In this document: positions 37,582 through 57,288 of the stretch, in pieces
How the letters are laid out: the number at the start of each line of letters is the position of its first letter
Numbering within the stretch: the stretch's first letter is position 1
Assembly: GCF_014850975.1 (NCBI RefSeq)
Contig: NZ_JACXST010000003.1
Span: 868,001 to 932,000, forward strand
From: Methylomonas fluvii
GTDB taxonomy: Bacteria > Pseudomonadota > Gammaproteobacteria > Methylococcales > Methylomonadaceae
Reading direction: 5' to 3'
DNA: 64,000 nucleotides
Notes under the pieces: model-generated
Databases searched by the model: none
What the model saw: only the letters and a program-made list of their open reading frames with translations
Told to the model about the DNA's origin: nothing
Made by a program: the position numbers and the translations under genes

Positions 37582-37804
37582 GTTTTTTTCATGTTTCAGT
37601 ATGGCAGATGAGGTGTTTGTGCCGGGAAAGTCATTTGCGCTCGTTTTGCGCTTTGTTCAAAGCGATTGATCGGCAAGCCTTACCGGTGAAATCCGCAGCA
37701 ACCAGCCGAACATCCAGTTCGCCGTCCCGTCGTAAAACGACGCAGCCTGCCGGGATTGATCCGGATACCAGTGTAAGCGAACTCTCGCCACACGGATTCC
37801 GGAG

Positions 37805-38938: not shown

Positions 38939-38939
38939 G

Positions 38940-39551: not shown

Positions 39552-39664
39552 CGTAAAAACTCCTGCAAGCCATGATGGCGGCAGGTTAGCACCGGCGGCA
39601 CAACCGCCCTAGCAGTTTTGCCAATCAAGATGCGGGGTTTGATTGAACGGCAAGCCGTGCGCAG

Positions 39665-40279: not shown

Positions 40280-40283
40280 AGTG

Positions 40284-40655
40284 TTAGAAGCCTGTATCGG
40301 CTGAAATCAGTTCAATTCGGTTACCGAATGGATCGGACGTGAAACAGCGAGTAACGTCAGGAATCGAAGTATCCTTCCGCACCTCGTAACCCGCGTCTGC
40401 GAGCTTTTTCAAGAGTTTCTCGTAACCCTCGATCAACAACGCCGGATGCGCTTTCTTAGCGGAACTGAAATCCCTCTCGATCCCAAGGTGGATCTGCAAG
40501 CTTCCACATTGAAACCACACGCCTCCACGCGAAGAAATTTGGGCAGGTTTGGGAATCTCGCTCAATTCAAGAAGTCCTCCGTAAAACGCGCGAGCTGTTG
40601 ATTCGGCTTCTGGCGGGATAGCTAGATGCACGTGGTCGATACCAACTACTTTCAT
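40284..40655 (-). CDS. VOC (glyoxalase/bleomycin-resistance) family protein
   Basis: The 123 residues form one VOC fold: two beta-alpha-beta-beta-beta modules. Metal-ligand-like positions are His in GIDHVHLA at the start, His in LQIHLGIE, and Glu in GNRIELIS near the end. Such proteins include glyoxalases, fosfomycin-resistance enzymes and dioxygenases; the substrate is not clear. Confidence 0.82.
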   Translation of the reverse strand: MKVVGIDHVHLAIPPEAESTARAFYGGLLELSEIPKPAQISSRGGVWFQCGSLQIHLGIERDFSSAKKAHPALLIEGYEKLLKKLADAGYEVRKDTSIPDVTRCFTSDPFGNRIELISADTGF

Positions 40656-40724
40656 AATGCGAAACCTTTCTCCGTGTTCCTTCGAATAAAGAAATAAATA
40701 ATTTTCCGTTATCTACCATGAGCT

Positions 40725-40976
40725 CTACATCACCAACGAATAATGTTCTACCGTTGGAAACGGCTCATAGAAATGATGCAGCAATGCACGCCATTCGTCG
40801 TATTGGACGGAACCTCGAAAGCCTTCGGTATGATCCTCCAGCGAATCCCAATTGACCAACAATACATATCGGTTGGGATGTTCGATGCAGCGCTGTAATT
40901 AATGCGAAACATAGCTGTTCATTGAGGCGATAATATCTGATGCTTGACGAAAAGCAGTCTTAAAATGAATATGATT
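40725..40976 (-). pseudogene. Antibiotic-biosynthesis-monooxygenase (ABM) remnant
   Basis: Reading the minus strand from 40976 to the stop at 40725 gives most of an ABM-domain protein (AFRQASDIIASMNSYVSH, then LQRCIEHPNRYVLLVNWDSL and HHFYEPFPTVEHY). It begins directly after the stop of the next upstream gene, in the same frame and without a start codon. About 15 N-terminal residues are missing, apparently by deletion. A TAA at 40899-40901 replaces what in relatives is a Gln (SHxLQ). Live members are small heme- and flavin-free quinol monooxygenases; this copy is dead. Confidence 0.75.
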
Positions 40977-41273
40977 TCATTCATTCCCCCAAACCGGCGA
41001 ACTCGGGCCTTCGTAGGGAGTGAGGTTGAGACAATATTTGACTGTTAGACCTTCGGCTTCCGAATAAACCAGATGTTTGATGGAGTGAACTGTATATCGG
41101 CTAGGGCGATCTAGCGAAGCGATAATGCCTACACCATCAAGTCGGTCCCAGCCAACATCATCGAAACGCTCGCCAACTAAAACAGTATGGAAAGGTGTAT
41201 CGGATTCGAATGCAGCTATGGGTTTGTGTTTCCCTGATGTGTCGCACAGCTCTAACAGGTATCGAGTAGCCAT
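40977..41273 (-). CDS. Small hypothetical protein
   Basis: The 98-residue protein has no signal or membrane segment. Its alternating hydrophobic pattern suggests a small beta-rich fold. The 3' end abuts the ABM remnant, so the last residues may come from the deletion that joined them. Function unknown. Confidence 0.6.
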   Translation of the reverse strand: MATRYLLELCDTSGKHKPIAAFESDTPFHTVLVGERFDDVGWDRLDGVGIIASLDRPSRYTVHSIKHLVYSEAEGLTVKYCLNLTPYEGPSSPVWGNE

Positions 41274-41350
41274 ATATTTTGCACCTTGCTTATTTTTCTA
41301 GTTACGAAACTCATTACTCACATCCAGCCAAAATGTTTTGGCAGCGCAAC

Positions 41351-41842
41351 TTAGGCCGATGCGCTCAATACATTACCAATAAATGTTTGCCAGATGGAGT
41401 TCGGCGTCCAGATTTCGTTCATCGGATACGTTGCAATCACTTCTTCTTCCGCCAAGCACAACCGGCGATAAAAATAAATGAAAGCGGACGCCCGTTTATT
41501 TTTTGCGCAATGCACCCAGACCTTATGCCCTTCAAATGCCTTGAGGACAGCAAAGAATTGTTCCAGCTGGCTAAGCCTGGGTTGTTCCCAGGCTACGGGA
41601 ATTTGAATATAAGTAATGCCTTGGCCCGCAACCAATTCGGCTTCGCCTGGCAATGCGTTGCTAGCCGTTGGCGGCGCCAAGTTAATCAACGCCTCTATAC
41701 CAAGCTCCGATAGTTTGGCTATGTCCGCCTCAGTCAGCTGTGCGGAACACCAAAGCCAGTCGAATACCTGATAAACGTTTTCAGCTTCAATGGGGTTATT
41801 CAATAGCGAAAGTCGCCTGTATACGTAACACGTTGAAGTCAT
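41351..41842 (-). CDS. Cys-based protein phosphatase-like protein (DUF442/dual-specificity type)
   Basis: The 163-residue protein has the phosphate-binding loop VHCAKNKRAS, a C-x5-R signature of Cys-based phosphatases. A segment LSELGIEALINLAPP is typical of the DUF442 (beta-lactamase-hydrolase-like) or dual-specificity branch. A general-acid Asp is not obvious. It lies 32 bases after the tautomerase gene. Confidence 0.78.
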   Translation of the reverse strand: MTSTCYVYRRLSLLNNPIEAENVYQVFDWLWCSAQLTEADIAKLSELGIEALINLAPPTASNALPGEAELVAGQGITYIQIPVAWEQPRLSQLEQFFAVLKAFEGHKVWVHCAKNKRASAFIYFYRRLCLAEEEVIATYPMNEIWTPNSIWQTFIGNVLSASA

Positions 41843-41874
41843 TCGCTGAGGTTTGGATCGGCGTTGAGCATTTG

Positions 41875-42270
41875 TTACACGTCAACTTTAAAACCCAGAT
41901 CAACATCGCAACCCGCTTGCCCACCTCGAATACCCCAATTCTCTTTGGGGATTTCTCTCAGCAAAATCTTCACATGATCAGGAGGTATGCCAAATGGCTC
42001 GAGATTGGTCACTATGGCCTTGTATAGATTTCGCTTGGCATCAAGCGATCTGCCGGCAAAGGCATCTATGCTGATATGGGTATAAAAATCCGCTTGCTCT
42101 CTCGCAGGCGGATAGGCGAAGCGATGCGGTTCATGAACAATAAGTCGAACATTCTTATCACCCGGGACAATTTTGAACGCTTCGCGTAAGGCCATGTGCA
42201 CGGCTTCCATCAGGGCAAATTCTTGCGTTGGCGTGTATTGGCGACGGACTTCAATCAACACACTTGGCAT
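41875..42270 (-). CDS. Tautomerase-superfamily protein (Pro-1 present)
   Basis: The 131-residue protein starts MPSVLIEV; removal of Met gives the N-terminal catalytic Pro of the 4-oxalocrotonate tautomerase superfamily. It ends with NWGIRGGQAG. At this length it is a fused double-unit form. A second, related protein lies at 47017 but lacks the Pro. The substrate is unknown. Confidence 0.82.
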   Translation of the reverse strand: MPSVLIEVRRQYTPTQEFALMEAVHMALREAFKIVPGDKNVRLIVHEPHRFAYPPAREQADFYTHISIDAFAGRSLDAKRNLYKAIVTNLEPFGIPPDHVKILLREIPKENWGIRGGQAGCDVDLGFKVDV

Positions 42271-43052: not shown

Positions 43053-43144
43053 ATTGTGGTTGTCGGTTGTTTTTGACGGTTCTAATGCTTTCGGCTGGGC
43101 CGATTCGCGTCTTTCATGAGCTTGCTAAATTCGTGCAGACGAAG

Positions 43145-43834
43145 TTACTGACCAACGGCGCGTAAGTCATTCAACCAAGTTCCAGCGTTTCTCGCCATCT
43201 GCTCATGTTCTTCATCCCGCCATGTCTCGCTGAGTGCCGAGGCATACCAGTCACGCATGGCCGGCAAGGCGAGCAAATGGTCGACGTACGAGCGAGCAGG
43301 CGGAGCCATTTCCAAGCCGTAGGTTTGTACGCGAAACGCGACGGGCGCGAAGAAAGCGTCCACGGCGGTAAATTCCGGCCCAGCCAGGTAGGGTCCGCCA
43401 AAGCGAGTTAGCCCCTCTTGCCATAATGCATTCAATCGAGTCAGATCCTTTGCCAAGGCTGGCGAAGGCGATGCCAAGCGAATCCGTAATCCGCAATTCA
43501 TGGTGCAACATTCACGCAAAACATGAAAACCAGAGTGCATTTCTGCAACCGCGCAACGGGCCCAGGTTCGCGCCGTTGCATCGGCCGGCCACACCGCCGG
43601 GCTTCGCTCGGCCAAGTATTCGGTAATCGCCAACGAATCCCACACGACGGTTTCGCCGTCGATCAGACAAGGCACTTTTCCGGTTGGCGAGAAATGGCGG
43701 AAGGCGTTGGCTTGATCCGTTCCGGTAAACGGAACCAGCTTTTCGACAAATGGAATGCCGAGTTCACGCATCAATATCCAGGGCCGTAGCGACCATGACG
43801 AGTAATTTTTATTGGCGATGTAGAGTTCGAACAT
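43145..43834 (-). CDS. Glutathione S-transferase family protein
   Basis: The 229-residue protein has the thioredoxin-like N-terminal domain (YIANKNYSSWSLRPW with the catalytic Ser candidates, then KVPCLIDGETVVWDSLAI) and an all-helical C-terminal domain. This start pattern is typical of the zeta/beta-like GSTs called YfcF/GstA-like in proteobacteria. A truncated relative with the same NKEYSSWPLRPW start is at 58401. It is intact. Confidence 0.88.
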   Translation of the reverse strand: MFELYIANKNYSSWSLRPWILMRELGIPFVEKLVPFTGTDQANAFRHFSPTGKVPCLIDGETVVWDSLAITEYLAERSPAVWPADATARTWARCAVAEMHSGFHVLRECCTMNCGLRIRLASPSPALAKDLTRLNALWQEGLTRFGGPYLAGPEFTAVDAFFAPVAFRVQTYGLEMAPPARSYVDHLLALPAMRDWYASALSETWRDEEHEQMARNAGTWLNDLRAVGQ

Positions 43835-43857: not shown

Positions 43858-44958
43858 TTAACCGTCGATTTTGCCACTGGGTATAAGCCCGGCGGAAGAA
43901 TGGCTTTGGCGGTCGCCATCCGATTTCAAATTGAACGCATTCACGAATTCACGCACCACGCCGACAAATTCATCGGCTCGATCCTGCATGATGAAATGGC
44001 CGCTGTTGCCGACCACGATATGCCGCGAATGGCTGGACAGACGGGCCAGATCGTCCTGCTCTGCCTGTTGAATTTCGGCGAGCACCTTTTCCGCTTCGAC
44101 ATCTTTGCCCACTCTTGCCGCTTCGCGCGCGACTATATCCGGGTCCACCAGATTGCCGGCGGTTAGCACCAGTAACGGCAGATTGCCTAAACTGCCTGGC
44201 GGCGGTGTGGCCGGATCGAGTCCTTGGCGCATCACGGCGATTTCATTGGCTACCGCCTGAGCGGTATCGGTGCGATTTTGTATCGCGGTTTTCGCGGCCA
44301 GGATTTCAGCCGGTAGCGGAGAAGGCCTGCGATTGGCATCGGCGATACCCAGCAGCCTGACGATACCAAGCCGCGACAACGGTTCGGCAATTGCAATTTG
44401 CAGGGCTTGTTTCCGATAATCCCAGGCAGCGTAGGGATACTGGTGCATGGGGCTTTGCTCGTGCGTCGAATCGACCAGAACAATACCCTGCGTCTGTTCG
44501 GGAAACCGCTGATAGAAAGCACGCACGTAAATTCCGCCACGGGAATGGCCGACCAATACAAACGGAGGGGCAATGCCGGCGTTGTGCAATAAGGCTTGCA
44601 GGTTTTCAGCCACTTCTTCCGGCTGGATGGCAGCGGCTATCGAATCGCTCCAACCCAGGCCTGGGCGGTCGTAGGCGCAAACGCGCATGGTCTGGGCCAG
44701 CTTGGCGTGAACCGGATACCAGCTCAACACGTTTTCGCCGAGGCCCGCTTCGAGAACCAGCGTCGGCGAACCGGAACCCAGGCAGTAAAGATGAAGATTC
44801 ACGCCGTTCACCGCAATCGTGCGTCCAGGCGGCGGGAATGCGGCTAGGTCTGCCGCGGTTGTTTCGGCTTGGTAAACTGCTCCCGCCAAGGCAGTAAGAC
44901 AGGCGATTGCCAAACCGAAAAGCCAGTAGCGCGAACACAGCCGCGATGCAAATTTCAT
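43858..44958 (-). CDS. Alpha/beta hydrolase with N-terminal membrane anchor
   Basis: I start it at 44958 (MKFASRLCSRYW, 366 residues); ATG 44967 is also in frame. A hydrophobic N-terminal segment (about 10-28) may be a signal or an anchor. The hydrolase core has the oxyanion-type GLGENVLSW, nucleophile elbow GHSRGG, and a C-terminal His in GNSGHFI. It lies 31 bases after the DUF6624 gene. The substrate is unknown. Confidence 0.82.
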   Translation of the reverse strand: MKFASRLCSRYWLFGLAIACLTALAGAVYQAETTAADLAAFPPPGRTIAVNGVNLHLYCLGSGSPTLVLEAGLGENVLSWYPVHAKLAQTMRVCAYDRPGLGWSDSIAAAIQPEEVAENLQALLHNAGIAPPFVLVGHSRGGIYVRAFYQRFPEQTQGIVLVDSTHEQSPMHQYPYAAWDYRKQALQIAIAEPLSRLGIVRLLGIADANRRPSPLPAEILAAKTAIQNRTDTAQAVANEIAVMRQGLDPATPPPGSLGNLPLLVLTAGNLVDPDIVAREAARVGKDVEAEKVLAEIQQAEQDDLARLSSHSRHIVVGNSGHFIMQDRADEFVGVVREFVNAFNLKSDGDRQSHSSAGLIPSGKIDG

Positions 44959-44989
44959 GTCAATCAACGAACGTTTGGGTAATCGGGAT

Positions 44990-45595
44990 TCAACTTGCGC
45001 CCCTCCAACCCACGGAATAAAGCCATGTTTGATATTGCTCCTCCAAGTCGGGCAGCGTCGGAATATTCTCTCGCGTACTTTGCGCGGTTAATTCGGCGGT
45101 TCTTTCTTCGATAGTATTCAAGCCGACCGCAAGCCGTCTATCGTTAACGGTTTCCGGATTCTCTATCGGATAAGGTTCGAGTTCTCCGTTTTGATTCGGC
45201 TGGAACTGGGTTCCGTAAATTTGCGGTTTTTCTTCGTACATGCGAATACGGTCTTCCAGAAACGCCGCCTGCCACGGCGTCACGTCGTTATTGGTGGCAG
45301 CTTGCTTCAGCAAAGACAGGCAATGCCGCATGAATGGCGGATTACCGATGGCATGTTGCGCGATCAACCAGGCGCCCCAAGCCCCCTCTTCGCCGACGAG
45401 ACTGTTTCCGGGCCAACCGTATTGTTCGATGATCTCCGCAAGACGAGCGGCATTGCCGATATGTACGGCTTCCATGCGCGGATGGTAGAGAGCTCGGCCC
45501 AGCGAGCCATCGGCGACCAACGCCTCCCGTACCGACAGATCGTTTTTTGCCATCGCCACCAGTTCCCGGCTTAAGGTTTCGTTTGAGTGATGCAT
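44990..45595 (-). CDS. DUF6624-family protein
   Basis: The 201-residue protein has the family patterns HIGNAARLAEIIEQYGWPG and GAWLIAQHAIGN. DUF6624 has no assigned function. It is soluble and all-helical by appearance. Confidence 0.72.
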   Translation of the reverse strand: MHHSNETLSRELVAMAKNDLSVREALVADGSLGRALYHPRMEAVHIGNAARLAEIIEQYGWPGNSLVGEEGAWGAWLIAQHAIGNPPFMRHCLSLLKQAATNNDVTPWQAAFLEDRIRMYEEKPQIYGTQFQPNQNGELEPYPIENPETVNDRRLAVGLNTIEERTAELTAQSTRENIPTLPDLEEQYQTWLYSVGWRGAS

Positions 45596-45865: not shown

Positions 45866-46330
45866 TCAATGAATCGATGCCGGGATAGGCAAATGGTAGA
45901 CATAAAACTGTTCGTCACGTGTCCAACCGGTTTTTCGATAAAGTGCCTGCGCCTCGGTGTTGATTGCTGCCGTTGACAAGGTCAGGCGGACTGCCCCTAA
46001 AGCGGCCGCATATTCGACTGCCGCAGCCATGAGCCAGCCGGCAACGCCTTGCCTACGAAATCCGGCATCGACAAATAGATCGTTGAGAATGTAGGTTCGA
46101 GCCAGCGAGACAGACGAAAAGCTGGGATAAAGCTGAACAAAGCCAGTGGCTCTATTGTCCTGCTCGGCCAGGAACAGTGCGGATTCGCCGTGTTCGAATC
46201 GATCCCGCAAAAACGATTTCGCCGCATGCGAATCGCTGGGTTTACCGTAAAACCGGCGGTAAGCATCGAATAACGGAACGAGTGCATCCAGGTCGGACAG
46301 CGTGGCTTGGCGAACGAAGAATGGCTTCAT
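45866..46330 (-). CDS. GNAT-family N-acetyltransferase
   Basis: The 154-residue protein (start at 46330, MKPFFVRQ) has the GNAT acetyl-CoA loop RRQGVAGWLM and a C-terminal NTEAQALYRKTGW. It lies directly after the PaiB-like gene. In Bacillus, PaiA (a GNAT) and PaiB are neighbours, so this could be a PaiA-like partner, although the sequence does not prove it. Confidence 0.85.
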   Translation of the reverse strand: MKPFFVRQATLSDLDALVPLFDAYRRFYGKPSDSHAAKSFLRDRFEHGESALFLAEQDNRATGFVQLYPSFSSVSLARTYILNDLFVDAGFRRQGVAGWLMAAAVEYAAALGAVRLTLSTAAINTEAQALYRKTGWTRDEQFYVYHLPIPASIH

Positions 46331-46354
46331 GACGGATTCCATCAATGGTTGGGA

Positions 46355-46987
46355 TTAGAGCTTGGCAGCATCGGCGACCATATTTGCCATACCCGCCTGC
46401 CCGGATTCGCGCAACGCTTCGATCACGCTGTTTCGGTTTTCCGGCGGCTGGTTTTGGCTGACTTTCCACTTGCCTTGCAGCCGGGTCACGCTGATCTCTA
46501 TACCGACAATCTGCGTGAGCAAGCGTTCGGTAAAATCGGCGGGCGCGTCCGCTACCGACCAAGGCTCTGGGAAACCGGCTTCGAATTCATCCGTCATGGC
46601 CTGCAATTGCCGACGAATCCAGGCCGGGTCGTCGATGATCCTTAGTTTGCCGTATGCATGCACGGCGGTGTAGTTCCAGGTCGGCACCACCTTGCCTGTT
46701 TCCGGTTTGCTGGCATACCAGGACGGCAAGATGTAGGCGTTTTCGGATTGAAACACCGCCAACACCTCGGTCTGTTGATCGAAATCGGTCCAAAGCGGAT
46801 TCGAGCGGGCAATGTGGCCGCGCAAACAGCCGTAAGCCGTATCGCCCTCCTCCAGCCAATGCAGCGGAATGTGGTTGGCGTTCAGACCGTCGGCGGACAA
46901 AGTAACCAGTGTCGCCAGCGGATAATCGCGTATCAAGGCCTGCATGACCTCGATTCTGGGTTCGTCGAAATGTTTGGGAATATACAT
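46355..46987 (-). CDS. PaiB-type FMN-binding regulator-like protein
   Basis: The 210-residue protein begins MYIPKHFDEPR and has the FMN-binding split-barrel pattern: NHIPLHW, then HIARSNPLW, and VPTWNYTAVHAYG. It belongs to the FMN-binding negative transcriptional regulator (PaiB) family. ATG 47017 adds an unrelated leader. It precedes a GNAT gene by 24 bases. Confidence 0.88.
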   Translation of the reverse strand: MYIPKHFDEPRIEVMQALIRDYPLATLVTLSADGLNANHIPLHWLEEGDTAYGCLRGHIARSNPLWTDFDQQTEVLAVFQSENAYILPSWYASKPETGKVVPTWNYTAVHAYGKLRIIDDPAWIRRQLQAMTDEFEAGFPEPWSVADAPADFTERLLTQIVGIEISVTRLQGKWKVSQNQPPENRNSVIEALRESGQAGMANMVADAAKL

Positions 46988-47016
46988 TTGATGTTTACCG
47001 TTTAAAGTTGATGCCA

Positions 47017-47406
47017 CTAGACATTGATTTTGTAATTCAAGGTTACTTCATCGCCGTGCATACCACGGAATCCCCAATTGCAGGCTGGACTTTCATGGAT
47101 GCAGATTTCAATATCTTGGTTAGTAATCCCGATCTTTTCTTGGATGCGGTCGAACAGTAAACGAATCAGCTTTTTCTTGGTGGCGACTTCCCTCCCTGTG
47201 ATCATGCTGATCTCGATGATCGTATAGGCATGGGTTCTGCCACTGGGCGCAAACAGGTCGTCTTTTTCCAGCGGAAAGAATCTGTGCGCCCTCTTGTCTT
47301 GCGGAAACTGCAAGGCTTCCACCACGCATTCATGAATCACATCGGACAATTGCCGCTTGATGGGGTTGAGATGGTCTTTAATCCCGTAGATTTTGATTTG
47401 TGCCAT
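47017..47406 (-). CDS. Tautomerase-like protein lacking Pro-1
   Basis: The 129-residue protein resembles the tautomerase at 41875 (shared end pattern NWGFRG and overall length), but its N-terminus is MAQIKIYG. The catalytic Pro after Met is missing, so it either acts differently or is non-catalytic. It ends 29 bases before the PaiB-like gene. Confidence 0.75.
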   Translation of the reverse strand: MAQIKIYGIKDHLNPIKRQLSDVIHECVVEALQFPQDKRAHRFFPLEKDDLFAPSGRTHAYTIIEISMITGREVATKKKLIRLLFDRIQEKIGITNQDIEICIHESPACNWGFRGMHGDEVTLNYKINV

Positions 47407-47439: not shown

Positions 47440-48129
47440 TCAGCTTGCACTAACCGCAGTCAAAAACGCCGCAACCAAAGGATGCGGCTGCTCCGGCGTG
47501 GACCGGAGTTGCGGCACGAACAGCGTGCCGATAAAAAACGGATGATCGGGCCATTCGATGACTCGAATTTCGCCTTCTGCATCGGCACCGGTGATTCGCA
47601 TTGGGCCTTGTTTCAAGACTTCGATAAATTCCGGGTTGATGCCGAAATTGCAGTAGTACTGTTCGGTGGCGGTCAACGCTCCGTAGATGTCGGCGGCGCG
47701 GGAGCCCGGTTCGAAACTCAGCGGCAGTTGTCGTCCGGCCAACGAGCAAGCCAGTTTCGAAATGAACAGATCGGACGCATAAGGATCGTACTCGGCATGT
47801 TGCGCGTCTTTAAATCCCAGCACATTGCGGGCGTATTCCAAAATCATGTGTTGAAATCCGCCGCAGGTGCCGAAGCATGGAATACCGTTTTCGCGGGCAT
47901 AACGAATCGCCTCCAGGGTTTTGTCCAGATTCTTATACGGGCTGCCCGGCGCCACCCAGATGCCGGCATAGCGTTCGAACAGGGTTTGGTCGATGTCTGC
48001 GGTTGAAACCCAGTCGGCGTTAATATCCACCCCCAAAGCCGTCTTGGCATGTTCGATGGCGGCGTTGGTCGACAAATGCGGCGGAAATGTCGGCGTGTAT
48101 TCACCGAGCAAGGCGATTGATGGGATCAT
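47440..48129 (-). CDS. CTP synthase C-terminal-region-related glutamine amidotransferase-like protein
   Basis: The 229-residue protein is a class I amidotransferase domain without a synthase part. The nucleophile motif GTCGGFQH is present. The place of the His-x-Glu pair reads FVPQLRSTP, so both residues are replaced (Val and Gln). This family is known as the CTP-synthase-related (seleno)protein; some members have Sec in place of the Cys. The function is unknown. Without the usual triad, glutamine hydrolysis is uncertain. Confidence 0.78.
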   Translation of the reverse strand: MIPSIALLGEYTPTFPPHLSTNAAIEHAKTALGVDINADWVSTADIDQTLFERYAGIWVAPGSPYKNLDKTLEAIRYARENGIPCFGTCGGFQHMILEYARNVLGFKDAQHAEYDPYASDLFISKLACSLAGRQLPLSFEPGSRAADIYGALTATEQYYCNFGINPEFIEVLKQGPMRITGADAEGEIRVIEWPDHPFFIGTLFVPQLRSTPEQPHPLVAAFLTAVSAS

Positions 48130-48152: not shown

Positions 48153-48968
48153 TTAGGGTTTCGATCGATAGATCTCCGGAGCTGCTCGATACAGACACGA
48201 ATAATGGGAAAGTCCGTCCACTACCGTGATTTTCGAACAGCCGGGCAACGCCGATGCCAAAAAATCGGCCATGGCAAGCGGCGACCAGTTGTCTTCCGCG
48301 CCGTGCCAGATCTGAGTATCGACGCTGATTTCGGCCAGCGCCGCTTTCCAAGGTTGAACGTAGGCGACGAGGTCGCGAGCATAGCCTAGGGCATCGCGCT
48401 TAAAACAGGTTTTGAGCGTTTTTATCATCGTGGTCCGAAATCCCTGGTCGGCCAGCAATGCTCGGTCTTCGCCGGCCGCGCTGGCAAATAACATTCGCAA
48501 CAACAGGCCTGGAAACCTATTCGCCAGCCATCCTTGTACCCGAGCCAACCGCAGAAATGCGGACGGACGGTTTTGAGCCAGCCGGAAAACGGCTTTTCCC
48601 GCCGCCGCGTCGATGAAGTCGCCGGCATCCAGCGGCGCGGCGGCGGAAACCAAATGCAGGCTGCGAACCTTGCCGTTCATCGCCCGGCAAACTTGCAAGG
48701 CAATGCAGGCGCCGATCGAAAAGCCGATAAAATCGACGGGCTTATCGCCAACCTTCTTGGCAATCTCATCGGCGATGCATTGGTAATACGCATGGCCTTG
48801 CAACCCAGGGGCTATGGTCGAGCGGTCATAACAAATGATAGTCTGCTGATGTTTTTTGCCATAACGATCGAAAATTTCGCATTCGTCAGGCGAACCCGGC
48901 GTACCGTGGAAATAGATCACCGGCCGGCCGTCGGCGGCGCCGAATTGGCTGAATTCTATTGATGACAT
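48153..48968 (-). CDS. Alpha/beta hydrolase
   Basis: The 271-residue protein (start 48968, MSSIEFSQF) has HGTPGSP near the start, nucleophile elbow GFSIGA, Asp in GAEDNWSP and His in LSHYSC. It resembles soluble esterases. Its start overlaps the end of the amidase frame by 13 bases, so translation was coupled. Confidence 0.82.
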
Positions 48969-50258
48969 AAAGGTGGCATCCTGTGTTTCCAAGGTTCGGA
49001 TTGTTCGAGCTGGGCGGCCAGTTGGAACAATAGCCGGTCGTTACCGATTGCGGCCATGAACTGCGCGCCATGCGGCAAACCATCATCGCTCCAATACAGC
49101 GGCACCGACATCGCCGGTTGGCCGGTGATGTTGGCAAGCGGGGTGAACGGCGTTTGCTGCACGGCTTTGCTGATGATCGCATCCAGCAAGCTGTTGCAGA
49201 AAATTTTGTCGGCCAAGCCGCTCGCCAGCAATCCGCACATCAGCCATCGTTCCAGAACATTGGGATCAAGGGCGTCGGATGCCAACGGCGGCGTGGCAAC
49301 CGTCGGCGTCAGAACCACGTCGTAGCGGTTATGAAAATCCGCCAACCGTGCGGCAATCCGCTGCCAGACAGCCAAGGCCTGCTGCAGTTGTTCGTCGCTC
49401 ACGCCTTTGCCGACGCCGGCCATCAGCCGGGTGTTCAACTCGAGGGCCAGCTGAGGTTCAGCCAGTTCCAGCAGTTGCGCCATGTTGGCGACATCCCGCG
49501 CGGTATAGTAAAAAATCACGGTCAGAAAGGCGCGCATCAATTCGTGGCCGTCGAAGTTCCAGGCCGCCTCCTCCACAATGTGGCCGAGCGCAGCGCAGTG
49601 TTTGGCGGCTTTGGCTGCAGCGGAGAGACAGTCGCGGTGTATCAATGTTTCGACAGGCGCCTGGTTGATCAGCGCTATTTTCAGCCTTTTCGGTGGCTGG
49701 CTGGCGGCGTGCAGGTAAGACGTGGAAGCCGGATCGGAGTGGCCGGCCACCCAATCCAGATAGGCGGCGCTGTCGCGCACGCTGATCGTGCAGGCATGGC
49801 TGACCACCGCCCCGCCCCACGCCTTCGATAAATCTTCGAAGCGGTTCAAGCCTCGGGACAGTTTGAAACCGAAAATGCCGCAATAGGAAGTCGGCAGCCG
49901 GATCGATCCACCGCCGTCGCTGGCATAGGCCATAGGCACGATGCGGGCAGCCACGGCTGCGGCACTGCCACCGCTGGAGCCGCCCGAATTGAGGCTTAGA
50001 TTCCAGGGGTTGCGGGTGCTACCGAACACGGCGTTGTTGGTCAGCGCCGAGCTCGGAGGTATTGGTCTTGCCGAAAGTAATCAACCCGGCGGCATTGAGC
50101 CGGGCGGCCATTTCGCTATCGGCGGCGGGACGGTAATCCTTCATCGCCACACTACCGTTCGACATAGTGACGCCAGCGAAACGCAGCATCAAGTCCTTCA
50201 CCAGAAAAGGCACGCCGGTAAACGGCGCACGGTTGCCCAGGTTTTTCACCAGCAATGC
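48956..50258 (-). pseudogene. Amidase-signature enzyme, N-terminally truncated and frameshifted
   Basis: The frame from 50258 carries GVPFLVKDLM (catalytic Lys) and GKTNTSELG. It then shifts by one base near 50046-50056 to the main frame, with the Ser-rich loop [10 protein letters not shown] and [10 protein letters not shown] (cis-Ser and nucleophile Ser). The C-terminal part is intact to the stop. About 50 N-terminal residues are missing and are replaced by a methyltransferase fragment in the other frame. The gene is dead. Confidence 0.8.
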
Positions 50259-50514
50259 GGAATTCCTCGGTCGGCTCGACTGCAACTACCCTGTGTCCGC
50301 GCGCTGCAAACCAAGCAGCATCGATACCAATGCCCGCGCCGATGTCCAAAACAAATCCCGGTGTTGTCGGCAACAGGTGTAATTCGGCGCGGTGAAGCTC
50401 CTCGAATACGATGGTTTCGTATTGGAGAATCAATGTTGCCGCGCACTCGCTGTAACCTTCGGTACCCGGCGTTCTAAGGGCGTTGGGTATGGAAGTTGTG
50501 TCCAGACTTCTCAC
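50259..50514 (-). pseudogene. 5' fragment of a class I methyltransferase fused to the amidase remnant
   Basis: A likely GTG start at 50514 leads into NALRTPGTEGYSE and LDIGAGIGIDAAWFA followed by HRVVAVEPTEEFR. These are the start and SAM motif I of a small methyltransferase family. Similarity ends at the GAATTC near 50258, where the amidase sequence begins. A deletion joined the two genes. The family usually opens with ATG at the position now read as ATA (before PNAL), so the start may also be lost. Confidence 0.65.
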
Positions 50515-50521
50515 CCGGTTA

Positions 50522-50914
50522 TTATTTTTCCGAATGCTTGGCAGCAAATCGCCCGATGCGGCCAAGATGGGTATAGCCGAATCCCTCCGGGTATTTGAGC
50601 CCGTAACCCAGCGCCCGATCAAAGCCAATGTGGGCACACCAGATTAAACCGGCACATTGAAGGGCCGGAACCGTAAAACCGATCACCAGGCTGGCAACGG
50701 CACCGAGGTATGAGTGTGCGGTGTTATAGCTAATGGCGCCAACCTTGGCGCCGGCGAAATAACCGAACAAAGAAATATAGGGCACCAGAAAGTAGATTGC
50801 GAAATTGCTCCAGTCTAGGCTGAGTTTTGCGTAAGCAAGGCAGGCTGCAATCAATACGCAAAGTCCCTCCAGTCGCAATAAAACACGAACGGCACCTGTT
50901 GTTTCACCAGACAT
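50522..50914 (-). CDS. DUF4260-family membrane protein
   Basis: The 130-residue protein has about four hydrophobic helices and the family's C-terminal FDRALGYGLKY. Its function is unknown. A lux-box-like palindrome lies 76 bases before its start, which suggests it begins a transcription unit. Confidence 0.82.
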   Translation of the reverse strand: MSGETTGAVRVLLRLEGLCVLIAACLAYAKLSLDWSNFAIYFLVPYISLFGYFAGAKVGAISYNTAHSYLGAVASLVIGFTVPALQCAGLIWCAHIGFDRALGYGLKYPEGFGYTHLGRIGRFAAKHSEK

Positions 50915-50989
50915 TTGGACTCCAGCAGTTTCCGCATAGAAACTGATTATTTTGTGTTAATTACAACTCAGGATCAGGTCTTGCAACAA

Positions 50990-51005
50990 CTGTCAGTATT
51001 GACAG
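50990..51005. promoter_or_regulatory. Lux-box-like palindrome upstream of the DUF4260 gene
   Basis: CTGTCAGTATTGACAG has arms CTGTCA/TGACAG. With its flank AACAA it matches the site at 56457-56472 at all but two central bases and in the same orientation. On the minus strand it is followed by TTGTT, as at the other site. Lux boxes are imperfect palindromes of about 20 bases with this CTGTc...gACAG shape. Confidence 0.55.
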
Positions 51006-51109
51006 GGTATGGTGTGAAACTTGTAACCCTTGGCGTACAGCTCGCTTATGATCCGCTATCACTGCAACTGCAGTCTAGGATTTATTCTATATCGACAAGC
51101 TCTCTTGGC

Positions 51110-51922
51110 CTATTGCATCTCACTCGGCCCCATGAACGCCAACATCAGCTTCATTTGCGCGGCCAACATGGGAACGCCGGTCTGGATGACCTTCCCTTGA
51201 CCGGACGCTTCCTGGAGTAACGGCGTCATTTCCGGTGCGATCACGCATTCGGCTACTAGGTCGCAATGCCCTATCAATCGCGTGGCTATCGGTAGCTCAT
51301 CATTCGGTTTCATGCCGAGAGATGTGGCGTTAATAGCGAGATCGTAATGGGCATTCGAACGCAGCTCTGTCGATATGTCCACTTGCGGATAGGCATGGCG
51401 GACTCTCGCCGACAGCGCGCAGGCTCTTTCGGGTGTTCGATTTTGTATGCAAAGTGACGAGCAGCCATGTTTGGCAAGGGCAAAAGCAATCGCCGATGCG
51501 GCGCCTCCGGCTCCGACCAGAAGGATGTGCGCGCCTTTCACGCTGTATCCGGCGCCGGCTAATCCGGCAACAAAACCTTCGCCGTCCAGCATGGTGCCAA
51601 TCAAGCGTCCATCACCGTTCCTTCGAACCACATTCACGGCACCGATCAGGCATGCCTCCGACGTCAGTTCATCAACCAAATTGGCGGCAACGACTTTGTG
51701 TGGCATGGAAACGACTGCGCCCCCGAAGTTTTTCAAGGCGCGCAGGCCCTCAATAAATGCGGGAAAGCCTTCCGCCGACACTTGCATGGGGAGCATGACA
51801 AAGGCACCCCAGAGCCCCCTTTCCCTCAGTAATGTGTTTGCCATGGCCGGCGTTCTGGCCTGGCTAACCGGGTCGGCGATGACGCCGAGTATTTTGGTGT
51901 TGCCGGTAATCGATGCAAGCAT
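51110..51922 (-). CDS. Shikimate/quinate dehydrogenase-like protein
   Basis: The 270-residue protein has the AroE fold: N-terminal substrate part with VVSMPHK (catalytic Lys), and a Rossmann part with LLVGAGGAASAI. A TMLDGEGFVAGL segment stands where AroE has a TDxxGF motif, so the catalytic Asp is kept. It is more like the accessory shikimate dehydrogenase-like enzymes than biosynthetic AroE. The true substrate is unknown. Confidence 0.82.
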   Translation of the reverse strand: MLASITGNTKILGVIADPVSQARTPAMANTLLRERGLWGAFVMLPMQVSAEGFPAFIEGLRALKNFGGAVVSMPHKVVAANLVDELTSEACLIGAVNVVRRNGDGRLIGTMLDGEGFVAGLAGAGYSVKGAHILLVGAGGAASAIAFALAKHGCSSLCIQNRTPERACALSARVRHAYPQVDISTELRSNAHYDLAINATSLGMKPNDELPIATRLIGHCDLVAECVIAPEMTPLLQEASGQGKVIQTGVPMLAAQMKLMLAFMGPSEMQ

Positions 51923-51973: not shown

Positions 51974-52594
51974 TCAGAAACCAAAGCCGCTATTCTGCGC
52001 CAGCACATAAGCCTGACGGACAGACGCCAAACCAAAAGCAGCCATCATTAAGGCCAATACTTTCATAACCAGCACGTAACCATGGCTTTCCAGGGCTGGC
52101 CTGAAAAAAGCCGCAAGCAAAGCAACGGCGAATTTTGATGCGATGAGCGTCAGTATAGCGGTGGCCACAAAGACCGAACTCTGCACCGCATTTCCCCGCA
52201 GAATGTAAGCACCACCAACCGTAAACCAAAAGAGATAAGGGCTTGGGTTCAGCAGATTGATTTTCACGGCTTGAGAGAGTGAACTTTCTTTTTCGAGCTT
52301 CCCGGCCAAAACGATTTCCTTAAGGGACAATATTTTCCGGGCCAGATAAACCAAGTACAGACCTCCAATTAGGCTCAGCGTTGTGGCAAACAAATTGATG
52401 CTTTTGAAGCTGGAAAGCAACCATAGCGCTACAATGATTATTGGGCCATCGGTTATCAATGGAGCCAAGCTTGCACGAAAGCCACTCAGCAGACCTTTGC
52501 TCAAGGTTTGTTGGATAACGACGATTCCAAGTGGACCGGGTTTGAGCCCGGCGGCAAGCCCAAACGACAGGGCGGAAAAGAAAAATTCATCCAT
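51974..52594 (-). CDS. LysE-family exporter
   Basis: The 206-residue protein has six hydrophobic helices and the family's N-terminal motif GLKPGPLGIVVIQQTLSKG. It exports amino acids or similar small molecules from the cytoplasm. The substrate is unknown. Confidence 0.86.
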   Translation of the reverse strand: MDEFFFSALSFGLAAGLKPGPLGIVVIQQTLSKGLLSGFRASLAPLITDGPIIIVALWLLSSFKSINLFATTLSLIGGLYLVYLARKILSLKEIVLAGKLEKESSLSQAVKINLLNPSPYLFWFTVGGAYILRGNAVQSSVFVATAILTLIASKFAVALLAAFFRPALESHGYVLVMKVLALMMAAFGLASVRQAYVLAQNSGFGF

Positions 52595-52659: not shown

Positions 52660-53220
52660 CTATGTTGTGCGATAGCGATATACCCCATATTCCCAATAGC
52701 CGCCGCCCGGCTTCGCGGGACCAACCCAGTTTCTGGCTAACAATTCCTGGGCTATGAAGTAATTAACGAAACCATGGCCCACCAGCAACACACTTTGATG
52801 CTCATGCGCCAGGTCTATTAATGTCGATGCCGCGACTTGCGCCCGCCTTTTTGCCATTAACAACGACTCTCCGTTTCGCGAGAATCCAATCACCGACAGA
52901 CACCGCAACAGCACGCCCCAGGCATTGACCGACATCGTCAATGACCCCTGTTTGAAATGAGGGGTAGCGATTTCCCGAAACACGGGGTCGCTCAGCAAAA
53001 TATCGGCAAATCCCAATGCCTTGGCCGATTCCAGAGAACGGATAAAGTCGCTACAAACGGCGACATGGCAAGCCGATGCGCGCTGCTTGGCGTTTTCCGG
53101 CGCTTCGTCCGCGATACCGGATAAATCATAATTTCTGATAATCTCGCAAACGTCCCGCGCCTTGGCCTTGCCTTTCAGCTCGAATGTCGGTTTACCGTGC
53201 CTGATTAATGTAATTTCCAT
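52660..53220 (-). CDS. Histidine-phosphatase family protein
   Basis: The 186-residue protein has the N-terminal RHGKP motif with the phosphorylated His, and a second His in VGHGF. It is of the phosphoglycerate-mutase-like branch. The substrate is unknown. Confidence 0.84.
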   Translation of the reverse strand: MEITLIRHGKPTFELKGKAKARDVCEIIRNYDLSGIADEAPENAKQRASACHVAVCSDFIRSLESAKALGFADILLSDPVFREIATPHFKQGSLTMSVNAWGVLLRCLSVIGFSRNGESLLMAKRRAQVAASTLIDLAHEHQSVLLVGHGFVNYFIAQELLARNWVGPAKPGGGYWEYGVYRYRTT

Positions 53221-53429: not shown

Positions 53430-53783
53430 TTAAACCTCAATACGGTCTCCAATTGTGGCGGGATGAGAGATCACCAAAAACCGGACGTCAGCGCTGGATT
53501 CATTGATGAGTTGGTGTGGCGTCTCGGGAGCGACTTCAATGCCTTGTCCTTCGGATAATTGGATGCGTTTGCCGTTTATTTCCATAATGGCGCAACCTTC
53601 CAAAATATAGAAAAACTGCCGGGCGCTGGCGTGAACATGACGTACTTCGCTTGCGCCGGGCGGTACGCGCTCGGAAATCACCGACATGTCGGCTCGTTTT
53701 ACGAGATGCCAACCGTCGCAGCCGTCGCCCCATGTGTAGTGCTCAGCGGATGAGCGGTCGATTGCTTGCATAAATTTTTCCAT
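53430..53783 (-). CDS. Cupin-domain protein
   Basis: The 117-residue protein has a small beta-barrel with metal-ligand-like residues in EVRHVHASARQFFYILEG and PETPHQLIN. The ATG at 53783 overlaps the thioesterase stop (TAATG), so the two are translated together. The substrate is unknown. Confidence 0.85.
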   Translation of the reverse strand: MEKFMQAIDRSSAEHYTWGDGCDGWHLVKRADMSVISERVPPGASEVRHVHASARQFFYILEGCAIMEINGKRIQLSEGQGIEVAPETPHQLINESSADVRFLVISHPATIGDRIEV

Positions 53784-54208
53784 TAATTGGTTGCACCTTG
53801 AACGATAAACCACTCAACGACGGCCGACATGACTACCACTCCCGCACCATCGACAACCTCAACGGGAATTGCGGCTACTACCCGGCCTCGGGTCGTCAGC
53901 TCAGTAGACCAGCGTTCAGTCCCTGCAACTGGGACATCGCATCTGGCCGACACCTGCCCCAATGCCGGCTTGCGAAACTTGGCCTCAAGCTTTCTGACCA
54001 CCGGAACGATGCCGGCGATACCGGAAAACTGCTGTGAAAGAAACGCACCGGAACCCGCTTCGGCAACCGCCAATAAGGCGCTGCCGTGGACGGTGCCGAG
54101 ATGATTGGTGTATTGAGGGTTTTCCGGTAAGGAAACTAAAAAGCCGCTATCCGGCTTGGCTAGCTCCAAGCCGATCAGTTGATTGAAGGGTAATTTTGAA
54201 ACATCCAT
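53783..54208 (-). CDS. Hotdog-fold thioesterase-like protein (DUF4442)
   Basis: The 141-residue protein (start 54208, MDVSKLPFN) has the hotdog patterns NHLGTVHGSALLAVAEAGSG and KLEAKFRKPA. It may hydrolyse an acyl-CoA or acyl-carrier thioester. It ends by sharing the A of TAATG with the cupin. Confidence 0.82.
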   Translation of the reverse strand: MDVSKLPFNQLIGLELAKPDSGFLVSLPENPQYTNHLGTVHGSALLAVAEAGSGAFLSQQFSGIAGIVPVVRKLEAKFRKPALGQVSARCDVPVAGTERWSTELTTRGRVVAAIPVEVVDGAGVVVMSAVVEWFIVQGATN

Positions 54209-54257
54209 TGCAATGATCTCTGATGAGTGTTCATGTGAAGGTTTGAGTTCCGGTTTT

Positions 54258-54776
54258 TCAAACCGCCGGCGCGGCAAGCAGATCGACATAAGCCTCCTCG
54301 ATAAGCAGACGATCAGAGATGCCCAGCCTTTCCAGCAATTCATGCGCAATTGCCACACCGGTTTCGTTAAGCTCGTTTTCTGTCAGCACCACTTCCAATT
54401 CCAAAAAATCACCCAGCCCTTCGACTTTATCCAAATGCAGCCGAGTCCGTCCCACCATGAACAGTGTGCGCTGCTTTAGCACCCTACCGCCTTCACCGTA
54501 AGCAAGGGCTAGCGTTTGACGGAGAGTATCGGGCGATGCGGTCGGCGAGATCATATAAAACGATGCCGTGGGGCCGGCGCTATCCGGGCGTTGATAGAAA
54601 ATCAGTTGCCCGTCATGATCGGAAAAGGCGCGAAGTTTTAGTCGTCCGTTGGGGCAAGGAAAAAAAGTATCGTCCTGAATGATTTCGATAGGTCCTTCAT
54701 CGGCGACGTTGACCACCAGCGGCCATAGTGATTCGACGCTATCGATTCGGGCTTTGATTTCAATGTTTTTGGCCAT
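54258..54776 (-). CDS. CYTH-domain protein
   Basis: The 172-residue protein has the N-terminal NIEIKARI (EIK of the ExExK-like signature) and the inner barrel pattern GRLKLRAF, then ELEVVL. Members include class IV adenylate cyclase, thiamine triphosphatase and tripolyphosphatases. The activity cannot be told. A product involving cyclic AMP would be notable. Confidence 0.84.
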   Translation of the reverse strand: MAKNIEIKARIDSVESLWPLVVNVADEGPIEIIQDDTFFPCPNGRLKLRAFSDHDGQLIFYQRPDSAGPTASFYMISPTASPDTLRQTLALAYGEGGRVLKQRTLFMVGRTRLHLDKVEGLGDFLELEVVLTENELNETGVAIAHELLERLGISDRLLIEEAYVDLLAAPAV

Positions 54777-54787
54777 ATTGGCTTCGG

Positions 54788-55903
54788 TTAGACAGATTGA
54801 TTTTGATGATCGATGTCCGGCAAGTTGTGATAAACCTGCTCGACGGTTTGGTGTTCGGTTAAGGCTTTAATGACGGCCGGCAAGGGCTCAGCGTGGATGC
54901 CGGGCAAATCTTGCTCCAAGGAATTCATAATCGGAAAGGCCAATTTTTCCAGCGGCGGGCAAAAATCCGCTGCCACACCGGGCTTATTGCCGCGCGCATC
55001 GATCCGGTACCAGCCGTATGGCTCCAGGTAGACCGCGTTCAAACCGTGCAGGCAAAAGGGCGGCGGGTCGCCGTCTATCGTCAGCCGCTGATAACACAGT
55101 CCGGCCGGAATGCCGTTGGCACGCAACAGCGCCGCCAGCAAATGGCTTTTGGCGTAGCAGTAGCCGGTAACGTGACTTAACACATCGGAGGCTTTACAGG
55201 TCACGGGGTTCAGCCGGTAGTCCCAGCTATGCTTGATTTCGTCGCGAACGAATTCGAAACAGCGTTTGGCGATGGCTTCCTCATCGCTGTAACCTTCGGC
55301 CAGTTTTGCGGCTTGGGCGACGATGGCCGGATGTTGACTGTCGATATAAAGACTGCTGCTGAGATAAGGCTTCATGTCCGGCAACCACTTTACCGCGCGT
55401 TGGACTTTGGTTAACACGCCGCTCAGTAATGACACGATTTCCGGCATCGCCAACAGCTCCGCTTCGCCGATGTTGGCACTCGGCAAAGGCAAGGTGATCG
55501 AGGCGGCTTCGATCAGTGTGGCCGACATCGTGATCAAGGTTTCCCGGAGCTCGGTATCGGCATGCTGGGCGCGTGGCGTGGCATTCAATACCGCCACCGG
55601 TTTATCAACAAAGCCCTCGAATGCCACCAACCAATCCAGCGCGTTTTTGATGGTGCCGGTAACCCCGTGCGCATATTCCGGGCTGGCGATCAGCAAGGCG
55701 TCCGCCGCGGCAACTTCGTTGCGCAATTGCTTCGCGACAGCCGGAAGCGTGCTTTCCAAATCCGGATTGTATAAGGGCAAGTCGCCAAGCCCGGAAAACA
55801 GACGGACTTCAATCGAGGCCGGCGCCAAATACCTCACAGTGCGCAGCACGGCGGAATTAATGGACGCCGCCCGCAAGCTGCCGTATAAGGCCAGAATTTT
55901 CAT
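54788..55903 (-). CDS. NADPH-FMN reductase and transglutaminase-like fusion protein
   Basis: The 371-residue protein has two parts. Residues 1-170 form an NADPH-dependent FMN reductase (GSLRAASINSAVLR and SPEYAHGVTGTIKNALDWLV). Residues 177-371 form a transglutaminase-like domain with the triad C249 (TGYCYAK), H286 (CLHGLNA) and D302 (RIDARGN). The second part starts MKPYLSSS, which looks like the start of a formerly separate gene. The fusion may come from loss of the first gene's stop codon. Both active sites look intact. Confidence 0.84.
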   Translation of the reverse strand: MKILALYGSLRAASINSAVLRTVRYLAPASIEVRLFSGLGDLPLYNPDLESTLPAVAKQLRNEVAAADALLIASPEYAHGVTGTIKNALDWLVAFEGFVDKPVAVLNATPRAQHADTELRETLITMSATLIEAASITLPLPSANIGEAELLAMPEIVSLLSGVLTKVQRAVKWLPDMKPYLSSSLYIDSQHPAIVAQAAKLAEGYSDEEAIAKRCFEFVRDEIKHSWDYRLNPVTCKASDVLSHVTGYCYAKSHLLAALLRANGIPAGLCYQRLTIDGDPPPFCLHGLNAVYLEPYGWYRIDARGNKPGVAADFCPPLEKLAFPIMNSLEQDLPGIHAEPLPAVIKALTEHQTVEQVYHNLPDIDHQNQSV

Positions 55904-55910
55904 GGCAAAT

Positions 55911-56342
55911 TTAGGTATTGAAGCTCAGGGAAAAGTAATGGCTGCTCAGCTGAAAGCCCTTATTAAGATACAAGCGATGGGCGGTAAAGCGCTGATGGCC
56001 GGAATCCAGATGCACGCCCTGGCAGCCGTGCGCTTTGGCGTGAGCTATCAGCCAACCGAGCAAGGCGCCGGCGAAGCCTTGCGCAGTCTCGCCGCTAAGT
56101 GTAGCTAAATCGTCGACGTACAGTATTTTGCCCCAGGCCAAAAACTCGGCCAAACGAAAACCCGCCACGCTTTTAACGGCGCCCTGCTGTCTAACAGCCA
56201 GAATTTGGTAGGACTGCAGTTGCTGGCGGCGAACCTGGGCTAGAAACTGTTCTTGCTTGAGGTACAGGCGCAACTCGCTGAACACCGGAAAACAGGCTTG
56301 GATTTCCGCCTCGGTATCGGCAATGAAAATATCGAAAGTCAT
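55911..56342 (-). CDS. GNAT-family acetyltransferase
   Basis: The 143-residue protein has weak GNAT patterns: LYVDDLATLSGETAQG for the acetyl-CoA strand region, and HRLYLNKGFQLSSHYF at the end. It is the first gene of the minus-strand array, and a lux-box-like site lies 114 bases before its start. It is not a LuxI-type autoinducer synthase; the LuxI residues are absent. Confidence 0.78.
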   Translation of the reverse strand: MTFDIFIADTEAEIQACFPVFSELRLYLKQEQFLAQVRRQQLQSYQILAVRQQGAVKSVAGFRLAEFLAWGKILYVDDLATLSGETAQGFAGALLGWLIAHAKAHGCQGVHLDSGHQRFTAHRLYLNKGFQLSSHYFSLSFNT

Positions 56343-56456
56343 GGCTACGGCTTAATAATCAAAAAGGGTGGCTGTTGGCTTGGAACATAATACCGGGTGC
56401 AGTTTAAACGCCTACCTGCTTAGCCGGATTAGACGCTATTTACAACCGCCTAACAA

Positions 56457-56472
56457 CTGTCAACATTGACAG
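56457..56472. promoter_or_regulatory. Lux-box-like palindrome between luxR and the array
   Basis: CTGTCAACATTGACAG lies between divergent genes, 105 bases from the LuxR-type start and 114 from the acetyltransferase start. It differs from the site at 50990 only in the central two bases. It could be bound by the adjacent LuxR protein and drive the array, its own gene, or both. Confidence 0.6.
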
Positions 56473-56577
56473 CATATACCGCCATTCTGGTTTGCCGGTA
56501 AGTATTACCGGACATGGGGTTTCCGCGAACTCAGCCTTTAGGATAAGCTGTCGAACAGATTTAACGACAATAAGCCC

Positions 56578-57288
56578 ATGAAAGCTTGGCAAGAAATTCA
56601 ACTTCAAGCATTGCAAACCAGCGACAGCGAGCATCAGCTTTTTCAAGCCATTGCGGCGTTGGGTGCGGAATTGGGTTTTGATTATTGCGCCTACGGACTC
56701 CGGTTGGCGCTGCCGCTAAGCAATCCGAAGATCGTGAAAGTGAGCAATTATCCATCGGCTTGGCAAACGCAATATCAGGCTAAAAACTATTGTGCGATCG
56801 ACCCCACCGTCAAACATGCTCTCCGCTCGTCTCAGCCCATCCTGTGGACGGACGGTTTGTTCGCCTCAACGGCGGCGTTTTGGGAAGAGGCCCGTTCGTT
56901 CGGCTTGCGGTACGGTTGGGCGCAATCCATGCGGGACGTCCCCGGCGCCACCGGTATGCTGACGTTGGCGCGATCCGATGAGCCGCTGAGCAAAGCCGAG
57001 CTGGCGGACAAGGCTTTTAAAATGGCTTGGTTGACCCAAACTGCGCATATGGCCCTATCGCGCCGCTTATTACCCAAATTGCTGCCGGAAGCGGATACAA
57101 AACTATCGAACCGCGAGATCGCGGTACTACGCTGGACGGCCGATGGCAAAACCGCCGGCGAAATCGCCGACATCATGAAAATAACCGAGCGGACTGTCAA
57201 TTTTCATATCAGCAATGCCGCAGCCAAATTAAATGCCAGCAACAAAACCGCGGCGGCCGTTAAAGCGGCGCTGCTCGGTTTTTTGTAA
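56578..57288 (+). CDS. LuxR-family quorum-sensing regulator (LuxR solo)
   Basis: The 236-residue protein has an autoinducer-binding domain (about 15-160) and a C-terminal LuxR HTH (about 170-230: LSNREIAVLRWTADGKTAGEIADIM, split here as in the family). The six residues that usually contact acyl-homoserine lactones are all present as W in YPSAW, Y in QTQY, D-P in AIDPT, W in ILWTDG, and G in VPGATG. No luxI lies in the window, so it is a solo or its synthase is elsewhere. It faces away from the array it probably controls. Confidence 0.88.
   Translation: MKAWQEIQLQALQTSDSEHQLFQAIAALGAELGFDYCAYGLRLALPLSNPKIVKVSNYPSAWQTQYQAKNYCAIDPTVKHALRSSQPILWTDGLFASTAAFWEEARSFGLRYGWAQSMRDVPGATGMLTLARSDEPLSKAELADKAFKMAWLTQTAHMALSRRLLPKLLPEADTKLSNREIAVLRWTADGKTAGEIADIMKITERTVNFHISNAAAKLNASNKTAAAVKAALLGFL

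Follow-up and report, generated by a model that had tools for sequence, protein, structure and literature searches.

In Methylomonas fluvii, a LuxR-type receptor probably listens for acyl-homoserine lactones (AHLs) and switches on two promoters that face a long one-directional gene array. This is the reading we favour, with moderate confidence: the receptor, MmsR, would act as an eavesdropping switch, and the array would be a replaceable set of small-molecule-modifying enzymes, most plausibly serving chemical defence. We drew it from the window, by which we mean the whole 64,000-nucleotide stretch analysed (C3 868001-932000 of a 5.59-Mb genome in four contigs), and from its relatives.

The regulator gene stands at the upstream end of the array:
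56578..57288, plus strand: mmsR orthologue, LuxR solo, 236 aa

Its product has the two domains expected of a LuxR solo, with Pfam matches to Autoind_bind (E 1.6e-39) and GerE (E 3.3e-19), and it is the sole Autoind_bind match in the genome. The sequence-only reading had described a LuxR-type gene with six AHL-contact residues, and we found them at what we take to be the contact positions (W62, Y66, D75, P76, W90 and G113, the last placed by eye). These residues are also present in the alignments with QscR and RhlR variants, the nearest PDB sequences (E 8.9e-53 and 1.5e-44, respectively). The LuxR of Methylomonas sp. LW13 (chromosome CP033381.1) is 92% identical and lies at the same locus. Both have the same FMN-reductase neighbour, which a review lists beside the LW13 gene as 'NAD(P)H-dependent FMN reductase' (PMC10134790, in the excerpt available). 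In the same excerpt, MmsR of LW13 is described as a class B LuxR solo with the ligands 3-OH-C10-HSL, 3-OH-C8-HSL and 3-OH-C12-HSL; it answers exogenous 3-OH-C10-HSL, and Methylobacter tundripaludum is given as a source of 3-OH-C10-AHL (PMC10134790). Part of another article states that Methylobacter signals may draw a response from Methylomonas (PMC6977074). Because it is an orthologue of the published LW13 protein at the same locus, the regulator is not new: judged by its sequence and its place, it is the Methylomonas LuxR solo MmsR.

We searched the genome for luxI with the Pfam model PF00765 and with the LuxI of a relative (G130) as query and found none, adjacent to mmsR or elsewhere, in agreement with the earlier view that the LuxR stands alone. 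Across 237 genomes of the family, PF00765 had matches in 71 genomes at E <= 0.001. True luxI was accepted in five genomes (six rows, E below 1e-11, a cut that we chose), and the other matches (best E 1.2e-8) were taken for chance or GNAT-like matches. Each of the five (G048, G130, G053, G162 and G202) carries a relative of the window LuxR within ~3.2 kb. Since the model gives strong matches in these five relatives, its silence in the M. fluvii genome is informative, although it was also silent in all 14 control genomes. In a tree of 77 LuxR rows, 69 of them different (some genomes appear under two names), the mmsR clade comprised 26 rows from ~19 genomes, all without luxI (support 99/92), and stood beside the luxI-paired G130 and G048. 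One luxI loss in the ancestry of this clade is apparently the simplest account; outside it, solos and pairs are intermixed (10 changes). Three luxI-paired loci that we compared (G048, G130 and G162) held 0 of 19 tested window array genes. Relatives with a luxI-paired LuxR carry a small ORF of ~146-156 aa between luxI and luxR (L111:17015-17455; L112:17782-18252).

Two palindromes and two putative promoter elements mark the array:
56457..56472, unstranded: site 1, lux-box-like palindrome CTGTCAACATTGACAG, between mmsR and the array
50990..51005, unstranded: site 2, palindrome CTGTCAGTATTGACAG, before the DUF4260 gene
56428..56433, minus strand: putative -10-like hexamer TCTAAT, array side, 34 nt from the site 1 centre (alignment by eye)
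50960..50965, minus strand: putative -10-like hexamer TGTAAT, array side, 35 nt from the site 2 centre (15 of 15 rows, by eye)

Site 1 is an exact palindrome, and a repeat scan found a 26-nt direct-repeat copy of it, 85% identical, at 50985-51010. The scan returned mainly low-identity families, of which we used D15, formed by the two boxes, and D2/D18, a short stretch present in duplicate. Allowing up to three mismatches, the window holds two sites (four hits when both strands are counted), where 0.29 hits would be expected, and none of 100 shuffles scored as high. The M. fluvii genome contains three CTGTCANNNNTGACAG sites and no site for the reversed control; site 2 lies ~5.5 kb into the array, and the third site precedes a second DUF4260 copy at C3:296083. 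These are the sites with zero or one mismatch; a two-mismatch search gave 17 matches against 13 for the control, and its 11 two-mismatch matches were dropped. The palindrome is therefore not scattered at random positions over the genome, its copies standing at mmsR and at two DUF4260 genes.

Both sites are conserved. Site 1, taken in each relative as the top-scoring place within 250 nt before mmsR, lies 78-106 nt before that gene and matches at 12-14 of 14 positions in 18/18 relatives examined, among which are four out-of-genus loci and G170 (a metagenome bin from a different genus that carries a genus-like contig). Site 2 lies 74-75 nt before the DUF4260 start in all 13 relatives with DUF4260 in the stretch (counted without G131 and the four out-of-genus loci). 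Aligned by eye, the plus-strand hexamer at site 1 reads ATTAGA in 13, ATTAAA in four and ATTTAA in two of 19 rows (G129 fragments left out), and at site 2 it reads ATTACA in 15/15; in the same rows we saw no conserved -10-like hexamer toward mmsR. A distance of 34-35 nt from hexamer to box centre would place the centre near -43 or -44, which is the layout of LuxR-type activated promoters. Each site is thus an inverted-repeat box upstream of, and next to, a predicted -10 element, as in a LuxR-activated promoter. A general promoter scan of the window detected neither boxed promoter and returned 11 promoter-like sites against 13.6 expected; terminator-like sites in the same scan numbered 31 against 24.8 expected. 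The sequence-only reading had placed a lux-box-like palindrome in one promoter region shared by mmsR and the array. Comparison across 37 genomes of the genus supported and strengthened this view, with the correction that two boxed promoters, not one, face the array. These footprints support control by the LuxR solo of at least two array-facing promoters.

In the same 37 genomes, the palindrome occurs in 17/17 LuxR-bearing and 2/20 LuxR-less genomes (G135 and G137; Fisher 1.2e-8, uncorrected for kinship), and the reversed control in 3/37. Fifteen of the LuxR-bearing genomes have an MmsR of 86-100% identity, G130 has a luxI-paired LuxR and G138 a distant one; G130, G131 and G138 hold one exact palindrome copy each, away from their LuxR. 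Three array genes were counted in the same way. The shikimate-dehydrogenase-like gene is found in 13/17 LuxR-bearing and 0/20 other genomes (LW13 has fragments only), DUF4260 above 80% identity in 13/17 versus 1/20 and the hydrolase abH3 in 12/17 versus 1/20, G115 being the exception both times.

Natural controls come from genomes that kept an enzyme gene and lack the regulator. The FMN-reductase/transglutaminase gene has a match in five LuxR-less genomes of the genus, and we examined four, leaving out G132 (73%, one domain). In G104, G108, G115 and G122 the gene is kept at 78-87% identity (partly split in G115), with no site nearby that matches at 11 or more of 14 positions; three 11-of-14 sites in G115 all lie more than 2.7 kb from it. 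G122 has the GNAT gene followed by EamA, with mmsR absent between them. Five FMN-reductase paralogue loci in LuxR-bearing genomes (L131-L135) likewise have no nearby box, the 11-of-14 site of L134 lying 1.4 kb off. Thus, the presence of a box goes with the regulator rather than with the enzyme. One of these loci is in the M. fluvii genome itself, where a second FMN-reductase/transglutaminase fusion gene (86%) lies beside EamA at C3:832777-833874 (L131), without a box.

The array runs away from mmsR as follows:
55911..56342, minus: GNAT acetyltransferase, first gene of unit 1 (Pfam)
54788..55903, minus: NADPH-dependent FMN reductase fused to a transglutaminase-like domain (Pfam)
54258..54776, minus: CYTH-domain protein (Pfam)
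53783..54358, minus: DUF4442 thioesterase-like protein, probably starting further in (Pfam)
53430..53813, minus: cupin (Pfam)
52660..53220, minus: histidine phosphatase family (Pfam)
51974..52594, minus: LysE-type exporter (Pfam)
51110..51922, minus: shikimate-dehydrogenase-like protein, scoring under the curated cut-off in all AroE models listed; predicted last gene of unit 1
50522..50914, minus: DUF4260 protein, first gene of unit 2 (Pfam)
50152..50637, minus: methyltransferase remnant at a ~4-5 kb deletion relative to siblings (Pfam, comparison)
48956..50029, minus: amidase, N-terminally truncated (Pfam, comparison)
48153..48992, minus: alpha/beta hydrolase abH3 (Pfam)
47440..48129, minus: class-I glutamine amidotransferase, related to the CTP synthase C-terminal region
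47017..47406, minus: tautomerase (Pfam)
46355..47017, minus: FMN_bind_2 protein (Pfam)
45866..46345, minus: GNAT acetyltransferase 2 (Pfam)
44990..45595, minus: DUF6624 protein (Pfam)
43858..44967, minus: alpha/beta hydrolase abH2 (Pfam)
43145..43834, minus: glutathione S-transferase (GST), possible far end of unit 2 (Pfam)
36610..42270, minus: remaining one-directional run, without a box, possibly in the regulon (Pfam)

The last stretch contains a tautomerase, a DSP phosphatase-like protein, TetR, an O-methyltransferase and a hydrolase, together with three proteins that match no Pfam family. Over the 20 kb beside mmsR, 97% of the called coding length is on the minus strand, and the minus-strand array first seen from 56.3 down to 36.6 kb is real. 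A single 19-kb regulon was too strong a claim: the boxes would serve two units covering ~56.3-43 kb at most, with predicted ends, and below ~43 kb the array has no box and its own TetR gene. Gene numbers per array are approximate, because the ORF caller was crude (longest frames without much overlap); the 'first minus run', which is broken by plus-strand frames, counts nine genes in the window and none in LW13. We scanned 27 array ORFs against Pfam and found among their proteins no backbone-forming enzyme (PKS, NRPS, terpene synthase and the like) of the kind that marks a secondary-metabolite cluster. Positions 42658-43138 hold no good ORF here, are 83-92% conserved in relatives of the genus and match inside the GFA gene of G039; they are probably a decayed GFA gene. 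Two similar stretches (81-84%), 42408-42550 and 45694-45781, look by eye like a ~50-aa membrane protein on the minus strand and are conserved in relatives.

We compared array content between species. At 12 loci of the genus, two of them shorter than 20 kb, FMN reductase and DUF4260 are present in 12 each, GNAT1 in nine, DUF4442 and cupin in seven each, CYTH in four and LysE in two. A gene was scored as present when a match of 35% identity or higher covered half or more of the window protein, and a gene scored as absent may instead have diverged. Outside the genus, four solos (G027, G028, G056 and G039) have the box facing a run of 12-24 small genes, all in one direction. Each of these arrays repeats 3-7 of 19 window genes, the glutamine amidotransferase being in 4/4. 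The other genes mostly differ and belong to like classes: GNAT, GFA, GST, glyoxalase, SnoaL, polyketide-cyclase-like, methyltransferase, DJ-1, ketopantoate reductase, cupin and EamA (Pfam scan of 25 proteins: 17 from G056, three from G039, five from G027 and none from G028). Since members are lost singly and similar classes fill the arrays elsewhere, independent modifying reactions, such as detoxification, fit better than one pathway. Two observations count against the defence reading. Much of the array keeps its gene order across the genus, as might be expected of a pathway, and the out-of-genus arrays also carry a penicillin-binding transpeptidase domain, a pyridoxal decarboxylase, EthD and TfoX_N; the transpeptidase domain, the decarboxylase and TfoX_N do not look like detoxification.

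Most array genes are maintained: against each of G126, G103 and G128, 10-13 of 17 genes could be compared, and their dN/dS values are 0.06-0.31 (abH2 versus G126 in this set is not an orthologous pair). Decay is visible beside this. Relative to three siblings, the window has lost ~4-5 kb behind DUF4260, leaving the methyltransferase remnant; its amidase has 357 aa, with upstream in-frame stops, against open frames of 497-502 aa in eight relatives compared, and in LW13 the FMN reductase is split.

The second DUF4260 copy has kept its box. It belongs to a second, partial array in the M. fluvii genome (C3:296083-310000, L120), in which the box and the DUF4260 copy (86%) are followed by GNAT, HAD, methyltransferase, a stop-interrupted abH3, FMN_bind_2 and others; the ORF just before the box resembles, by eye, an IS3-type transposase. 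Beyond the second array (C3:308653-311060; L120, L190), a TetR gene and a membrane-protein gene repeat those at window 37598-40279 with 99.9% identity over 1348 bases, and adjacent stretches match at 98-99.8%.

The same genes could instead make an unusual small molecule, by an AHL-induced biosynthesis with shikimate-dehydrogenase-like, FMN-reductase, methyltransferase, GNAT, amidase and export steps. A relative, Methylobacter, makes tundrenone under quorum control (PMC6977074, in the part available), and the constancy of FMN reductase and DUF4260 at all 12 genus loci agrees with a biosynthetic role. However, a pathway is hard to square with the lack of a backbone-forming enzyme among the 27 proteins, with the single losses of GNAT1, CYTH and LysE and with the few window genes that recur outside the genus, and we consider it unlikely. 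The hydrolases and the amidase raise a second possibility, quorum quenching, in which the array would degrade or modify the foreign AHL itself; amidase and hydrolase folds include AHL-degrading enzymes. Such a task would leave ~20 further enzymes unneeded, and the window amidase is truncated, so that quenching is very unlikely.

A more conservative proposal limits MmsR to the first gene or two behind each box and makes the remaining run an ordinary cluster of unrelated accessory genes. It draws on the facts that box positions bear on promoters alone, operon ends being predicted, that unregulated one-directional gene runs exist too and that part of this run is decaying (amidase, methyltransferase). 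The distribution of distal genes makes it quite improbable: the shikimate-dehydrogenase-like gene, last in unit 1, and abH3, deep in unit 2, are both concentrated in LuxR-bearing genomes at the counts given above. Small one-directional genes, their turnover and a GTTAGGC next to site 1 also recall an integron cassette array, with the palindrome as recombination site. We dropped this as scarcely credible, because GTTRRRY occurs 107 times in the whole window against 108.35 expected, without the enrichment that attC core sites would bring; moreover, there are two palindromes for ~25 genes, and the palindrome tracks the LuxR gene, not the enzymes.

We therefore return to MmsR as an eavesdropping switch. 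In the window strain, MmsR would most likely bind AHLs from neighbours; as a dimer it would bind the two palindromes and activate the two array-facing promoters. Promoter 1 would drive the unit from GNAT to the shikimate-dehydrogenase-like gene and promoter 2 the unit from DUF4260 to the hydrolase/GST genes, the extents being predictions. With competitors near, an array of modifying enzymes and an exporter would thus be switched on, most plausibly for chemical defence. The footprints suggest the regulation of the array by MmsR, and from there we infer the defence role; detoxification or signal processing is a plausible function. The published ligand and the array together suggest an alarm, in which a competitor's signal is heard and a chemical-defence set comes on. 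More tentatively, and with somewhat less than even confidence, we propose that such loci are LuxR-solo expansion sites: after one luxI loss, the promoter of the orphaned receptor may have become a platform that collects and exchanges enzymes, an inducible and fast-evolving chemical-defence island in methanotrophs.

The sequence-only reading knew of no such regulon. Its regulator has already been described as MmsR (PMC10134790, in the excerpt available). For a two-box regulon or a changing array, we found no description in the literature searched. The primary LW13 study (Puri et al. 2019) may describe part of the MmsR regulon, hence newness is not proven. Many LuxR solos lack a clear regulon; here the footprint points to likely target promoters, and the target is unusual, a modular array of enzymes whose membership turns over from species to species. 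If the reading is true, a lineage lost the ability to signal, kept listening and turned it into an inducible defence, which is testable in a cultured methanotroph (LW13), and the array offers a set of uncharacterised enzymes whose expected substrates are the compounds of competitors.

Several known systems resemble this one in part. QscR and RhlR of Pseudomonas aeruginosa have the closest solved structures by sequence; their organism, targets and neighbourhood differ. SdiA of E. coli and its relatives is a LuxR solo that eavesdrops on foreign AHLs. It resembles the window LuxR in lacking its own synthase and in sequence (E 4.5e-42), but it is not the closest relative, and it is not known to us to have a comparable neighbouring enzyme array. 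MbaI/MbaR is the quorum sensing system of Methylobacter tundripaludum. It shares AHL signalling and the methanotroph family with the window system, and its host is the published ligand source; mbaI is named in PMC6977074 (part of the text). Unlike the window genome, in which no synthase was found, MbaI/MbaR has its own and drives the tundrenone genes. The nearest system is MmsR of LW13, an orthologue (92%) at the same locus with the same FMN-reductase neighbour. Unlike LW13, M. fluvii has the FMN-reductase fusion unbroken and preceded by a GNAT gene; it also has the shikimate-dehydrogenase-like gene and, at the second DUF4260 copy, a third box.
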